Origin: Labilibacter sediminis
GTDB lineage: Bacteria; Bacteroidota; Bacteroidia; Bacteroidales; Marinilabiliaceae
Assembly (NCBI RefSeq): GCF_005877885.1
Contig: NZ_VCHY01000026.1
Coordinates: 1-61,864 of the forward strand
Reading direction: 5' to 3'
Length of the DNA stretch: 61,864 nucleotides
Positions within the stretch are counted from its first letter, which is position 1, and each line of letters starts with the position of its first letter. Below are positions 498-34,839 of the stretch, piece after piece. The translations under genes were made by a program, and so were the position numbers. Below the pieces are notes generated by a model. The model worked only from the letters and a program-made list of their open reading frames with translations, was not told where the DNA came from and did not search any database.

Positions 498-2195
498 CTA
501 TCGTTTTGACTCATGAAGTGCTTCAGAAACGTTAATGGCATAATCACCTATTTTTTCACATTCGTGCACAATGTCTGTAAAAACTACGCCTTGATCATAT
601 GAGTAATCATTATTTTTAAGACTTTCAAGATGTTCCGTTTTTAGTTGTGTAAAATATTGATTAATTCGATCTTCAATTTCATTTGCTTTATCCAAAGCAA
701 CATTTCTTTCTTCAGCATTTAAGTTTTGCCTCATAATATTTAAAGATTCTTCCACCAGATTAAACATCAAATCTAGTTTGTCGTGAATGATGGAAGAAAA
801 TTTAATATTGTTTTTGTGCATCCGGTTAATAATTCGGGCCAGTGTATAACTACTGTCTCCTATGCTTTCTAAATCGCTAACCAGTTTTAGCATTGCTCTT
901 ATTCGTATTCTGCTTGCTTCACTTAATTTACCTTGTGAAACTTTTGCCAGATAGTTGGCTATTTCAACTTCTACATCATCGCTAATGGATTCGTATTTTT
1001 CAATGCTAGTGTATAAACGATTAAATTTTTTCTCGTTCTCTTCTAATATAAGTTTCCTGTTAAATCCAAGCATTTTATTTGTATGCTTAGCATATGATTG
1101 TAATTCTTTTTTGGCCTGAAGAATGGAAAGCTCGGATGTTGAAAGCATTCCGGTGGTTATATAGCTAAGTCTAAATTCTTCACCTTCTTCACTTTTTTGT
1201 GGCACCAATTCAATAATTATTCGATGTATGAGAGGTACAAAACCTATAAAAAGAAGTAGATTAATAATATTAAAAGATGTGTGAAAAAGGGCCAGAGCAA
1301 ATGGAATAAGGGCTTGAGGATTTTTTACGGAAACAGCACTGCTACTACTGATTATTTTTTCAATGAATCCTGTATAAGGAGTAAAAACAAATAGCATCCA
1401 AATCACACCAAGCAAATTAAACAACATATGTACCCGAGCTGCTCTTTTGGCACTAACATTACCAATGGTAGCAGCAATATTTGGGGTAATTGTTGTTCCA
1501 ATATTTTCTCCCAATATCATGGCAGCACCCAGTTCGTAAGGAATCCATCCCTGATTACACATCACAAAGGTTATGGCCATTGTAGCACCTGATGATTGAA
1601 TCAGGACGGTTAAAAGGCTTCCTATAAATAGAAATAATAAAACAGATACAAAGCCAAGGTTTGTATATTCAGAAAGGAAACTTAAAATTTCAGGATTATT
1701 ATTAATGTCAGGTACTGTTGTTTTAATAAAATCAAGGCTGACAAATAATATTGAGAATCCAATGATGGCTTCTCCCCATGATTTATGTCTTTGAACTTTT
1801 GAGAAAACCAAAGGAAAGCCTACTGCCATAAGCGGCAAAGCATATTCGGTAAAATTAAATCTAAAACCAAACAAGGAAATAAGCCAACCTGTTACTGTTG
1901 TACCTACATTAGCTCCCATAATTACACCAATGGATTCTATAAGTGAGACCAGGCCGGCATTAACAAAGCTGACAACCATTAAAATTGTAGCACTTGAAGA
2001 TTGTATAGTTGCAGAAACTATTAACCCGGTTAGTACTCCCAAAAATCTATTAGAAGTCATGGCAGCAAAAATGCTTCTCATTTTTGCTCCTGCCACTTTT
2101 TGCAGTGCTTCACTCATCAGTTTCATTCCATAAAGAAACAAACCTACTGCACCAATCAATTTTAGTAATTCAATTAAAGAATAATCCATAGCCAA
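498..2195 (-). CDS. Na/Pi cotransporter family protein with C-terminal PhoU-like domain
   Basis: Predicted inner-membrane sodium-dependent phosphate (or other anion) carrier of the NptA/PNaS family. It has the two inverted family repeats: QSSSAT at residues 65-70 followed by GANVGTT, and QSSGAT at 200-205 followed by GENIGTT. About eight hydrophobic segments fill residues 10-330. Residues about 350-560 form a helical PhoU-like domain. The length (565 aa) is normal for the Bacteroidota fusion type. The start used here gives MAMDYS; the second Met is equally possible. The gene stands alone on the minus strand with its own terminator and is head to head with the HTCS gene. It is a housekeeping-type gene unlikely to belong to the PUL. 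The transported ion is inferred from the family only. Confidence 0.9.
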   Translation of the reverse strand: MAMDYSLIELLKLIGAVGLFLYGMKLMSEALQKVAGAKMRSIFAAMTSNRFLGVLTGLIVSATIQSSSATILMVVSFVNAGLVSLIESIGVIMGANVGTTVTGWLISLFGFRFNFTEYALPLMAVGFPLVFSKVQRHKSWGEAIIGFSILFVSLDFIKTTVPDINNNPEILSFLSEYTNLGFVSVLLFLFIGSLLTVLIQSSGATMAITFVMCNQGWIPYELGAAMILGENIGTTITPNIAATIGNVSAKRAARVHMLFNLLGVIWMLFVFTPYTGFIEKIISSSSAVSVKNPQALIPFALALFHTSFNIINLLLFIGFVPLIHRIIIELVPQKSEEGEEFRLSYITTGMLSTSELSILQAKKELQSYAKHTNKMLGFNRKLILEENEKKFNRLYTSIEKYESISDDVEVEIANYLAKVSQGKLSEASRIRIRAMLKLVSDLESIGDSSYTLARIINRMHKNNIKFSSIIHDKLDLMFNLVEESLNIMRQNLNAEERNVALDKANEIEDRINQYFTQLKTEHLESLKNNDYSYDQGVVFTDIVHECEKIGDYAINVSEALHESKR

Positions 2196-2384
2196 CTACA
2201 ACTTCATTATGTATCTATCTATCGAAAACAAATGTTTATGATACATGTTAAAAAAGGAGCTATAAAAATAGTAACATTTTTATACTGAAGTATGATTAGG
2301 AGTTAAATTGAGAATATAAATTGAAAAAAATAGATAAATTTAAAATGAATAGACATATAATCGTATTATATAAAGGACTAATAA

Positions 2385-5300
2385 ATGATTAAAAACTATT
2401 CTTTTTTTATAATTTTAAAAAAAATAATTGCTAAAAATATGTACATACAAATGATTTGCAAATATTTGTATTTTAAGTGGTTGATTGTGATGTTTTTTGC
2501 TCTTTGTAGTGTAGAAATGTTAGGTAATGAGTATCAAATTACCTACTTATCTGCAAAAGATGGCTTATCACAAAATGAAGTTACTTCCATTTATCGTGAT
2601 AAATCTGGATTTATGTGGTTTGGTACCAGAGGCGGACTGAATAGGTATGATGGTTATGAATTCAGGCACTATAAACCTTTAGCTAATCAAAATAGTTTAC
2701 AGAATCCTTCTATTGAACGACTATATGGAGATAGAAAAGGGAATATTTGGATTGGGACTAAATCAGGAGGTTTTAGTGTGTATGGCCTTAAAAAAGAGCG
2801 TTTTTACCATGCAAAAGATTCTTTGCAAAGATTTCCGAATCGGGTAATATCTTTTTATGAGGATATGGAAGATAACGTATGGATGGGAAGCTGGCCCGGA
2901 GGTTTGTTTCAGTTAAATTCTGATAAGAAAATTGTTAAGCATTATTTAGGCAATGATAGGGTAAATTCTATTATTGCAACAGAAGATACAACAATCTGGT
3001 GTGGAACAATTAACGGATTGCGTTATAAAAAGGGAAATGAGGTATTTAAGCATGCTACGATAGGTAAGGGAAACCAGGAGGTAACGGAAATTATAAAGGA
3101 TCCTAGAGGACCTTACTTATGGATGGTAGGATGGAATTTACACTTAATTAAATTTAATTACGAAGATTTTACTTTTAAACAGTATCGTATACCATTTGAA
3201 TTGACAAACAAGCCAGCTAATACATATTCCATAGAGCAGGATATAAATGGGAATATTTGGGTAGGAACATGGAGTAATGGATTGTTTTTGTTTGATACCA
3301 CAGAAGAGTTGTTTCAACATATTGATATTAAGCCGGAAGGAACCATAGCGTCAAATATTGATTACGATGTTATATTAGATATATTCCAAGATAATATTGG
3401 CGATATTTGGTTGGGAACAGATGGTGGGGGAGTGGTTAAATTAGCTAAGAAAACACAATTTAAAAATCTCAATTCTGACTTAAATAGTAAGATTAAAAAG
3501 CAACATATTAACGCTATTTGTGTGGATTCTAAGAATCAAACCTGGATTGGAACAAAAGGGAGTGGCCTTTTTGTATCATCAGGTATGAATAATTTTGAAC
3601 ATGTAGGGTTTGATTCAAAGGATCCTTTATATAATACTAAAGGGATTATAGTCAAGTGTGTTTATGAAGATTCCGATAAAAACATATGGGTTAGTATAAA
3701 TGAGGGATTATATATTGCTGACAAAGATGCAAGGGGAAAATATACTTTAATGCATTCTGCTCCTTATTTTAAAAGTCCTCAATTAAGGTTTATATTAAAA
3801 GCACACGATATATCCCTTAAAGGTGATGATTTATGGATTGCCACCCAACAAAGGGGAATCTTTTATTATAAAAGAGTTAATGGAGTTTATGAGAAGGTAA
3901 GGCAATACACCGTTAATGACCAAGATTCAAAAATTTTAGATAACCGTGTAACTTCCATAGTGCATGATGATAAAAACAGAATGTGGATTGGTAGCTACAA
4001 AGGGTTGATGTTGTTTGAACCTTCAGATTCAACATTTATACCATTGACTAATTTGTTAGGCAATGACCAAGAACCATTGTGTGATATCGTTTTAAGTGTA
4101 CATATTGATCCGCAGAATAACATATGGTTTGGAACTCCATGTAGTTTGAATAAATTGAGTGAGAAATCCGGTAAATTTAATTTGCAAGCTTATACTCGTG
4201 ATAGTGGTTTACCAGATGATTATATAAACGGAATTTTGAGTGATGAGAACAATAATATATGGATTAGTAGCAATTCAGGGATCTCACAATTAAATCCCGA
4301 AACTGGGGTTGTTGGTAATTATGATGAAAGTGATGGTATAGGCGGGATGAATTATTCGGAATCTGCATGTTTTAAAGACAAGAATGGTAATTTATATTTT
4401 GGAGGCTATTCACACCTTACCTATTTTAATCCAAAGGATATTGAAGAAAATAAAATATCTCCTCAAGTTGCAATTACTAATTTTAAAATTTTAAACAAAG
4501 AGGTGCCCATTGAAGATAAGGGAATTCTTCCTTATTCTATAAATTACATGGATAAGTTGGTGTTAACACATAATGAGGAAGAGTTTTCCATTGAATATGC
4601 AGCACTAGATTATAAGGCACCTATCAGAAATCAGTATAAATATTGGCTCGAAGGTTATAATGATGATTGGATTTATGCAGGAAGCCGTAGGCATATCTCC
4701 TTTAGTAACTTGCGTCCGGGTGATTATGTGCTTCATCTCACCGGTTCTAATAGTAATGGTGTTTGGAACGAGAAGGGATACCAATTGGCTATTGAAGTTT
4801 TACCACCTCCCTGGAAAACATGGTATGCTGTACTTATTTATGTTTTGCTGTTAATGATGGTAGTTGTTCTCATTACTTTTATTGCCAAAAAGCAGGAACG
4901 GTTAGAGAATAAAATTCATATGGAAATGGTGATGCGAGAAAAAGAGCATCAGATGAATGAATATAAATTAAAATCTTTTACCAACATATCTCACGAAATT
5001 AGAACTCCGTTAACCTTAATTCTTGCTCCGGCAAATGAATTATTAAAGAGAGAGTTTGAGAAAATTACGCCAGGTTATTTTAAAGATAAAGTAAATCTGA
5101 TATATCAGAATACAAACAGACTTTATAACCTGGTAAATCAATTGTTGGAATTTAGAAAAATGGAAGCAGGGAAGGTTAAATTGGAAGCTGCCAAATTGGA
5201 TCTTTCTGCTTTTTTTAATGAGATTGTCTTTAATTTTGAAGAGTTTGCTAAAATAAAGGACATTTCTTTCCAAAAGAAGGTGCAGGGTAAAGATTGGATG

Positions 5301-6540: not shown

Positions 6541-6588
6541 ATAAAGCCTTCACGGAAATTGTATTTTTAATTTTCGTGAAGGCTTTAT
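6541..6588 (+). terminator. Intrinsic terminator of HTCS1
   Basis: Perfect 14-bp stem, ATAAAGCCTTCACG (6541-6554) with CGTGAAGGCTTTAT (6575-6588), starting 16 nt after the HTCS1 stop. The arm ends in AT-rich sequence rather than a long T run, but position and stability fit a terminator. Confidence 0.8.
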
Positions 6589-6705
6589 TGTTAATAATAT
6601 CTCTCATTTAGCATACCATATTTCTTGGCCTGCTAGTATGATTTCTGGATGCTTAAAAGCAGGATAGAATTATAAGTATTTCTGTTTTTTTTACTTTAAG
6701 TGTTT

Positions 6706-6875
6706 AACCCGCTTTATGCATTAGAAAATCTATTACACATTGAAACCACTTCAAAACAAGACACTTTGTTGCTTCACTTCAACTCACCAGAACGATGCTA
6801 TGCCTCGTCTCAGTAAAGCCTTGTTTTATCGTGCATTCAATGCTCATGACGAAGTTCTAATACATAATGCGAGTT
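6706..6875 (+). mobile_element. MITE-like 170-bp element with terminal inverted repeats, copy 1
   Basis: Non-coding element bounded by imperfect 21-bp terminal inverted repeats: left end 6706-6726 (AACCCGC...ATTAGAA), right end 6855-6875 (TTCTAAT...GCGAGTT). A second copy of the same length, about 70% identical by eye, sits in inverted orientation at 34595-34764. The shared core includes TCAACTCACCA and CGTCTCA blocks. No target duplication could be recognised. A 78-codon frame across it (6740-6976) is not conserved in the other copy and is taken as chance. It could be a MITE mobilised by a transposase elsewhere, or a structured intergenic repeat. Confidence 0.75.
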
Positions 6876-7230
6876 CAATTAAAATTTCTTTAAGAATCTT
6901 TTACATTCCGAAGTGTTTCTTTAAGATTTCTACACCATTTTGCTTAAAAATCAAAGGCGATTTTAACGTTTGTTGACGTTGTATTTTGATTTGTTAACGA
7001 AAACCCTCAATAATGTTAAAGGATGTTAAATGTCTTATTTAGAGGCGTTAACGCACGGTGTGTGAATGTAATTACCTCTTTTCTGACAATTCATAATATC
7101 TTCTTTTGATGAAAACTGCCTCACAGAATGATGAAATCAAGCTGTGAAGAGGAAGCTATAATCCCCAACTTGCAAATATCAAGTTTGGAGAAATTGTCTT
7201 CGCTAAGTACATAAAGCAAAATAAGCAATT
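6876..7230 (+). promoter_or_regulatory. Probable PUL1 control region with direct repeats
   Basis: Non-coding stretch between the 170-bp element and the small leader frame. It contains a direct repeat (TTTCTTTAAGA at 6885-6895 and 6916-6926, starts 31 bp apart, both followed by TACA about ten bases on), a cluster of GTTAACG-like words, and the palindrome GCGTTAACGC near 7046. TTCTTTTG at 7101-7108 is one mismatch from the Bacteroidota -7 consensus TAnnTTTG. HTCS regulators with AraC domains are known to bind repeated sites upstream of susC, so the direct repeat is a plausible operator. This is inference only. Confidence 0.35.
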
Positions 7231-34578: not shown

Positions 34579-34594
34579 CGTTGATGGTCATTTA

Positions 34595-34764
34595 AACCCG
34601 GATTATGTGTTAGAACATCGTTATGAGGAATGAAAGTGCAAACAAATCAAGGATTTGTTGAGACGACTCATAGCACCGCTATGGTGAGTTGAAACAAGTT
34701 AGTTTACGCCTTGATTGGCAGTAGTTTCATTACGTAATAGGTTTTCTAACGCATATTGCGGGTT
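34595..34764 (-). mobile_element. MITE-like 170-bp element with terminal inverted repeats, copy 2 (inverted)
   Basis: Same element as at 6706-6875, opposite orientation and identical length. Terminal inverted repeats at 34595-34615 (AACCCGG...GTTAGAA) and 34744-34764 (TTCTAAC...GCGGGTT). Two internal mini-hairpins are perfect here (CAAATCAAGGATTTG near 34640-34655 and CATAGCACCGCTATG near 34669-34683). It starts 17 nt after the PUL1 terminator. Divergence between copies indicates old or independently acquired insertions. Confidence 0.75.
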
Positions 34765-34839
34765 AAAGTTAATCTTTTGTATTTAGAAGATAATCCGAAT
34801 TTGAAGAGACATCACTTGTTAAATTGTTGTCTGTAATTG

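Follow-up and report, generated by a model that had tools for sequence, protein, structure and literature searches.

Two short non-coding segments in a 61,864-nucleotide stretch of Labilibacter sediminis DNA (contig NZ_VCHY01000026.1, positions 1 to 61,864; hereafter the window) raise the question of whether they are mobile DNA, a structured repeat, or something that combines the two, and of what might have moved them. A sequence-only reading of the window had described two 170-bp segments, at 6706 and 34595, with 21-bp imperfect terminal inverted repeats, and had taken their architecture for that of a miniature transposable element or of a structured repeat family. We found that they are both at once, a miniature transposable element (MITE) with a conserved hairpin, and we consider it very probable that they belong to a MITE family with IS1380-type ends, whose hairpin is kept in the copies that act as sources.

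The two copies in the window

Both segments were found where they had been placed, and their terminal repeats match at 18 of 21 positions in each copy; among all 61,694 segments of 170 bp in the window, no others have inverted-repeat ends that match at 17 or more of 21 positions. The repeats therefore stand as described, but the exact boundary does not, as the true ends lie two bases further in on each side, because the outer AA/TT is part of a duplicated TTNAA target. The element proper of copy 1 is 166 bp (6708..6873), with its core strand on the minus strand of the window and terminal inverted repeats at 6708..6726 (plus) and 6855..6873 (minus); its target duplication reads TTTAA on the left (6703..6707) and TTCAA on the right (6874..6878), so that the middle base differs. 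Copy 2, also of 166 bp but of another subfamily, lies at 34597..34762 with the core strand on the plus strand, terminal inverted repeats at 34597..34615 (plus) and 34744..34762 (minus), and TTAAA on both sides (34592..34596 and 34763..34767). The two copies are oppositely oriented, since 131 of 176 alignment columns are identical with copy 1 reversed, versus 116 of 187 on the same strand.

Both copies lie between long open frames, in agreement with the intergenic placement noted earlier. The accompanying remark that both sit just past a terminator is correct for copy 1, which has a terminator-like hairpin at 6542-6587, but not for copy 2, near which the scan found none. As had been claimed, no conserved frame was found. 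The core strand carries a 22-codon ATG..TGA frame, open in 24 of 43 representatives, which has no coding signature, because variability does not peak at the third codon position (0.177, 0.266 and 0.241 for the three positions), and it was set aside as a possible peptide for this reason. The frame ends in ..HS..VS, and in copy 2 (34623 onward) it stops after 12 codons.

A high-copy family with target duplications

The sequence-only reading had proposed to look for further genomic copies, sharp ends and target duplications, and all three were found in the L. sediminis genome (6.36 Mb, a draft assembly of 372 contigs). Both window segments belong to one high-copy family. With copy 1 as query there were 40 near-full-length matches at 94-100% identity, itself included, and two more short reverse matches at 79-81% (40 of 212 candidates scored). 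With copy 2 as query (40 of 189 candidates scored), 24 matches were near full length at 94-100% and the remaining ones were 76-81% identical or partial; the two window copies therefore represent separate subfamilies. The end pattern with at most two mismatches gave 311 matches, versus 7 with the reversed control pattern, which suggests about 150 elements in this genome. We read 103 distinct full-size copies of 163-167 bases, each at its own place, 4 of which have more than 3 mismatches in their ends. The copies have a common CCCG...CGGG boundary, which delimits an element of 165-166 bp. Copies of 186-187 bp also occur (L067, L072 and others) and have, inside an arm, a CCTGCC..GGCAGG-type palindrome of about 21 bp.

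For the duplication test, 119 raw end pairs, some of them spurious, were reduced to 93 by size and mismatch filters, and 6 of these were set aside for a second repeat adjoining them, leaving 87 clean copies. Identical 5-mers flank 77 of the 87, whereas in 10,000 shuffles the number averaged 28.7 and never exceeded 44. TTNAA with an equal middle base on both sides was read in 69 of the 87 copies. Another 15 copies do not have TTNAA on both sides, and the flanks of 8 of them are still letter-identical (CTTAA, TTTAT in three, ATAAA in two, TTAAT and TTCAT), as expected from true duplication of an off-consensus target. A duplication length of 4 bases fits 3 copies and one of 6 bases fits none.

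The joined flanks of ten insertions were also searched against eight genomes of the same genus. For twelve matches an alignment across the joint was attempted; eight alignments were usable, and none of these eight carries the element; they represent three of the ten insertions, L016 in three relatives, L095, which is an 89-bp short member, in four, and L066 in one. The four other alignments (L149, L150, L157, L171) did not cross the joint or were poor. Because the orthologues are only 67-79% identical and only three of ten insertions, one of them the short member, are represented, the TTNAA before insertion cannot be read from these sites. Shared boundaries, copy number, 5-mer duplications and sites without the element in same-genus genomes together identify the family as a MITE. 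With so many natural insertions, the family lets the rules for ends and target (TTNAA, 5 bp) be taken straight from genomic sequence.

Copies in relatives

From the end pattern, copies had seemed nearly absent from the other genomes of the genus, but DNA searches overturned this impression: among the matches listed, 47 fell within the element in G004, 8 in G005, 7 in G001 and 3 in G008, some of them partial. In G001, G005 and G008, 4 of the 9 copies read have identical flanking 5-mers, TTAAA each time. In G004, a common left flank was recognised by pattern in 33 of the 44 matches read and in two more by eye. A 5-kb region of this genome (L263, G004:C3:3535400-3540400) is made up of modular non-coding repeats, among which the hairpin occurs seven times on the same strand, and no frame longer than 91 codons was found in it. 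The shared left flanks and this array indicate that the G004 family spread mainly inside larger non-coding repeats.

Several variants were also observed. An insert of about 71 bp occurs at one fixed site of the hairpin in L178, L183, L199 and L216, which belong to different subfamilies and genera; the total size with this insert is 236-237 bp, or 256 bp in L216, where the palindrome described above is present as well. In G025, two 170-bp elements (L105, L107) have the same ends around an interior without a match to the core, and both fold better than shuffles as DNA (z -4.4 and z -3.4); they may represent a second MITE family, of equal length, in a different genus.

A conserved hairpin with compensatory changes

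Over its full length the element is a quasi-palindrome, and across subfamilies and genera changes in one arm are compensated in the other, so that the long hairpin keeps its pairing. RNAalifold was applied to 27 representatives, taken from 31 clusters at 93% identity from the L. sediminis genome and relatives after leaving out L105 and L107 (unrelated interiors) and L072 and L074 (doubtful ends). The consensus has 47 pairs with 96.4% of cells paired, and 24 pairs are changed on both sides; none of 500 shuffles reaches this, and slid structures pair 34.5-41.4% of cells with 6-12 double-change pairs. Sixteen further sequences of the genus were then added, chosen from 53 matches with a query coverage of at least 140 and less than 88% identity to any other row. 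With these 43 sequences there are 48 pairs, 94.3% of cells are paired and 30 of the 48 pairs are changed on both sides, versus 0 of 500 shuffles and slid structures with 36.5-42.2% paired and 14-18 double-change pairs. The structure was derived from the very alignment on which it is scored, and these figures are biased in its favour to that extent; the shuffles and slides guard against this only partly, and they control incompletely for the sequences being related. Compensation is densest in the inner stem (columns 58-70 with 95-107), well inside the ends.

The predicted RNA fold differs strongly between strands. Copy 1 gives -60.6 kcal/mol on the core strand versus -37.8 on the other, and copy 2 gives -62.3 versus -37.6; the core strand has the better predicted fold in 27 of 27 and 41 of 43 sequences, and the consensus fold energy for the 43 sequences is -39.0 versus -5.7 kcal/mol. 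Read on the plus strand of the window, which is not its core strand, the interior of copy 1 folds weakly (z -1.99, with 8 of 200 shuffles as good). When the pairs were chosen in a strand-neutral way, by Watson-Crick pairing, G-U cells numbered 129 versus 61 for A-C, and 31 columns versus 14 showed this direction (sign test p 0.016, with related sequences), an asymmetry weaker than that by energy. The excess of G-U together with the one-strand fold points to a strand that is read as RNA. A fold of a single DNA strand could also be involved, since copy 2 folds better than shuffles with DNA parameters as well (z -4.9).

Landed copies and source lineages

Mutations private to single copies were compared with these differences between subfamilies in 107 copies of eight subfamilies, from the L. 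sediminis genome and relatives. Private changes number 100 in 964 paired columns versus 34 in 363 unpaired columns, they keep pairing in 22 of 88 cases, where about 18% would be expected for random changes, and they produce G-U 20 times versus A-C 17 times. Landed copies decay freely without regard to pairing, whereas differences between subfamilies keep the fold. Because private mutations in landed copies ignore pairing, the fold seems to be maintained in the propagating copies, that is, along the lineages from which new copies arise. Variants common to at least two copies keep pairing in 15 of 35 cases versus 22 of 88 for private ones, a difference that is suggestive (Fisher p 0.08); shared variants give G-U 13 times versus A-C 6 times, which differs little from the private 20 versus 17 (p 0.39).

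These data bear on an explanation in which the copies belong to the host as resident structured RNAs, acting in 3'-end processing, mRNA stability or regulation, and mobility is incidental. Such a role would fit the strand-specific covarying fold and also the genomic placement, as none of 98 copies in the L. sediminis genome is spanned by an open frame of at least 100 codons and for 54 of 85 copies the closest gene end is the 3' one (binomial p 0.017). However, avoidance of genes and promoters would yield the same 3'-end bias. Among 94 copies with neighbouring frames of at least 100 codons on both sides, 32 lie between convergent, 45 between tandem and 17 between divergent frames, and the orientation between tandem genes shows no significant preference (26 versus 15, p 0.12); an Rfam search of the window returned no family above the curated threshold. 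The sharp ends with 5-bp duplications and the private mutations, which ignore pairing, also speak against a resident host RNA, and we regard it as quite improbable.

Quasi-palindromes are known to be corrected by template switching or conversion. A DNA process of this kind, in which mismatches between the arms are repaired, might keep the hairpin with no selection for the fold. This would agree with the lack of clear selection on pairing in landed copies, and with the excess of kept pairing among shared variants falling short of significance. It gives no reason for a strand preference, yet G-U exceeds A-C between subfamilies, and the near symmetry of private mutations is unlike these between-subfamily differences. 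We therefore hold arm-to-arm correction to be possible but rather doubtful.

In the explanation that we prefer, a MITE with a hairpin kept in its source copies, the fold would matter while the element is a source of new copies, and a copy that has landed would no longer need it. The simplest form of the fold would be an RNA read from the core strand. A bolder version, which we offer only tentatively and think rather doubtful, is that a one-strand transcript of the MITE folds into a hairpin required for its own spread, which would be selected in source copies and would decay in landed ones. If true, RNA would take part in the life cycle of a non-autonomous transposon of the DDE type, related to piggyBac, and might, for example, recruit or restrain the transposase, or make new insertions tolerable to the host. 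It is an old question whether the hairpins of palindromic MITEs are needed for spreading, are used by the host or are by-products of DNA repair, and pairing that is kept between subfamilies and ignored in landed copies makes this question testable.

The putative mobilising transposase

A full-length relative with a transposase and the same ends, for which the sequence-only reading had proposed to search, was found in other genomes, but none was found in the L. sediminis genome itself. In G017, contigs starting inside sequence with MITE-type ends pointed to the gene for a 434-aa transposase; the protein scores 261.3 bits with NF033539 (IS1380; cut-off 180) and 166.9 bits with PF13701, and by these profiles it is an IS1380-family transposase. 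G007, of the same genus, encodes a transposase 78% identical to it in an insertion sequence (IS) of 1393 bp, TTAAT|CCTGCTCTATGCAATAGAA...TTCTAATGCATAATTCGGG|TTAAT, that is, with TTAAT on both sides. A contig scan of the genomes gave 13 loci. The copy in Sphingobacterium bovisgrunnientis has similar ends and TTAAA on both sides; similar IS ends were seen in further genomes, with unequal flanks, TTAAA and ATAAA, in an Ulvibacter MAG (L137). One relative, G070, contains MITE copies as well as a broken IS. The ends of the MITE agree with those of the G007 IS at 12-17 of 19 positions. In blastn comparisons of two MITE subfamilies with this IS, one matched only in the 19-22-bp ends (E 0.002) and the other gave nothing convincing, with no similarity beyond the ends. 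For the transposase itself, a model from a two-row alignment reached a mean pLDDT of 32.9, and a search of PDB sequences gave no match up to E 1.

On this basis, an IS1380-type transposase acting in trans would recognise the MITE ends of about 19 bp, excise the element and join it, through a 5-base stagger, to a TTNAA target, in a manner similar to that of piggyBac at TTAA. The protein search matched 10 of 149 genomes, with L. sediminis among the 149 but without a match in it at 1e-10; its genome also has no match to the PF13701 profile and three sub-cut-off matches to NF033539, the best at 22.1 bits. Since no IS1380 transposase was found in this assembly, the mobilising enzyme is one that we infer, and its absence from a genome with many nearly identical copies counts against the explanation. 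So do the lack of similarity between MITE and IS beyond the ends, the spread inside larger repeats in G004, and the equal 5-mers in only 4 of 9 copies of G001, G005 and G008.

The same absence despite near-identical copies could mean that a different resident transposase, not the IS1380 enzyme, moved the MITE in this genome, and ten matches to PF01609 (DDE_Tnp_1) are indeed present there. None of the ten is flanked by a pair of MITE-type ends within the flanks searched; two of these loci (L220, L221) have a single MITE-type end nearby. Moreover, the end and target rules match those of IS1380 elements in the same genus and beyond, and an IS that was lost or is unassembled, in a draft of 372 contigs, would explain the absence. 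We therefore think another resident transposase unlikely, and the IS1380-type enzyme remains our preferred candidate.

Two loci that resembled autonomous partners were rejected. At L221/L062, a separate element with its own ends and a 10-bp duplication is inserted inside a MITE copy; the L062 element (C1, about 2105-3715) carries a gene labelled IS4-like by eye and has the ends CATAGCCGTCAAGCTAAG. At L084, an apparent 1.36-kb autonomous element turned out to be a MITE copy, with 8 bp missing from one end, that abuts a transposase gene (L084:2225-3250), which we take to be of the IS110 type.

A second repeat was observed in the MITE end at seven loci of the L. sediminis genome (L023, L024, L051, L059, L070, L072, L099), at the same spot and in both orientations. 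It has the ends CAATGTCGTTTAGTTAAG and is 329 bp long in the five complete loci; its 10-bp duplication, of the ATAATCCGGG type, is perfect in three of these loci and differs by one base in the other two. Judging from its resembling ends, this repeat may be a miniature form of the IS4-like element at L062.

A further explanation would place the family among hairpin elements of the REP/RAYT or integron attC type, for which one could cite the imperfect palindromes, the high copy number, the strand-specific fold and the seven same-strand copies in the 5-kb array of G004. We disfavour it as extremely unlikely, as the 5-bp duplications occur at scattered sites, the ends are the termini of a DDE-type IS, and the array consists of modular non-coding repeats whose frames do not exceed 91 codons.

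Comparison with known systems

ERIC and Correia repeats are palindromic repeats of roughly 100-170 bp that are thought to be MITEs; they differ from the present family in having other mobilisers, TA-type targets and unrelated hosts.

Literature searches by title and abstract, mostly of non-subscription papers, listed no report of an IS1380-linked MITE and none of such a MITE for Marinilabiliales; two of the mobilome papers listed (PMC11578231, PMC3281130) contain both words. An IS1380-linked MITE thus appears to be unreported, a novelty that extends as far as title and abstract searches reach.

Excerpts of two papers on the bcr1 repeats of the Bacillus cereus group (PMC3446304, PMC6542083) describe similarly short, high-copy, MITE-like repeats, with about half of all bcr copies found in transcripts. 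The host is unrelated, however, and these excerpts propose a mechanism resembling site-specific recombination with a TTTAT motif and mention no IS1380 link. MITECca01 of Cardinium is, like ours, a Bacteroidetes MITE with recognisable IS ends, but it is about 240 bp long, its parent is the IS982-family ISCca4, and the term hairpin has a count of 0 in that paper (PMC9769881). The BrickBuilt/MITE repeats of Porphyromonas gingivalis are likewise intergenic MITE-type repeats of Bacteroidota, but they form another family, and IS1380 has a count of 0 in that paper (PMC5771137).

The eukaryotic piggyBac and IS1380 are described as distantly related, with 4-bp duplications and CC..GG termini (PMC10045372), and the target duplication of piggyBac is given as the 4-bp TTAA (PMC7351741). 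Our MITE resembles piggyBac in its CCC...GGG ends and in an AT-palindrome target that is duplicated on insertion, but the duplication is the 5-bp TTNAA instead of the 4-bp TTAA. Elsewhere, IS1380 elements such as ISEcp1 spread resistance genes (PMC9330008). The IS1380-family IS found in this work and the MITE are alike in their ends of about 19 bp and their 5-bp, TTNAA-like duplications, whereas the IS is 1.4 kb long and encodes the 434-aa transposase, and the interior of the MITE is unrelated to it and non-coding.
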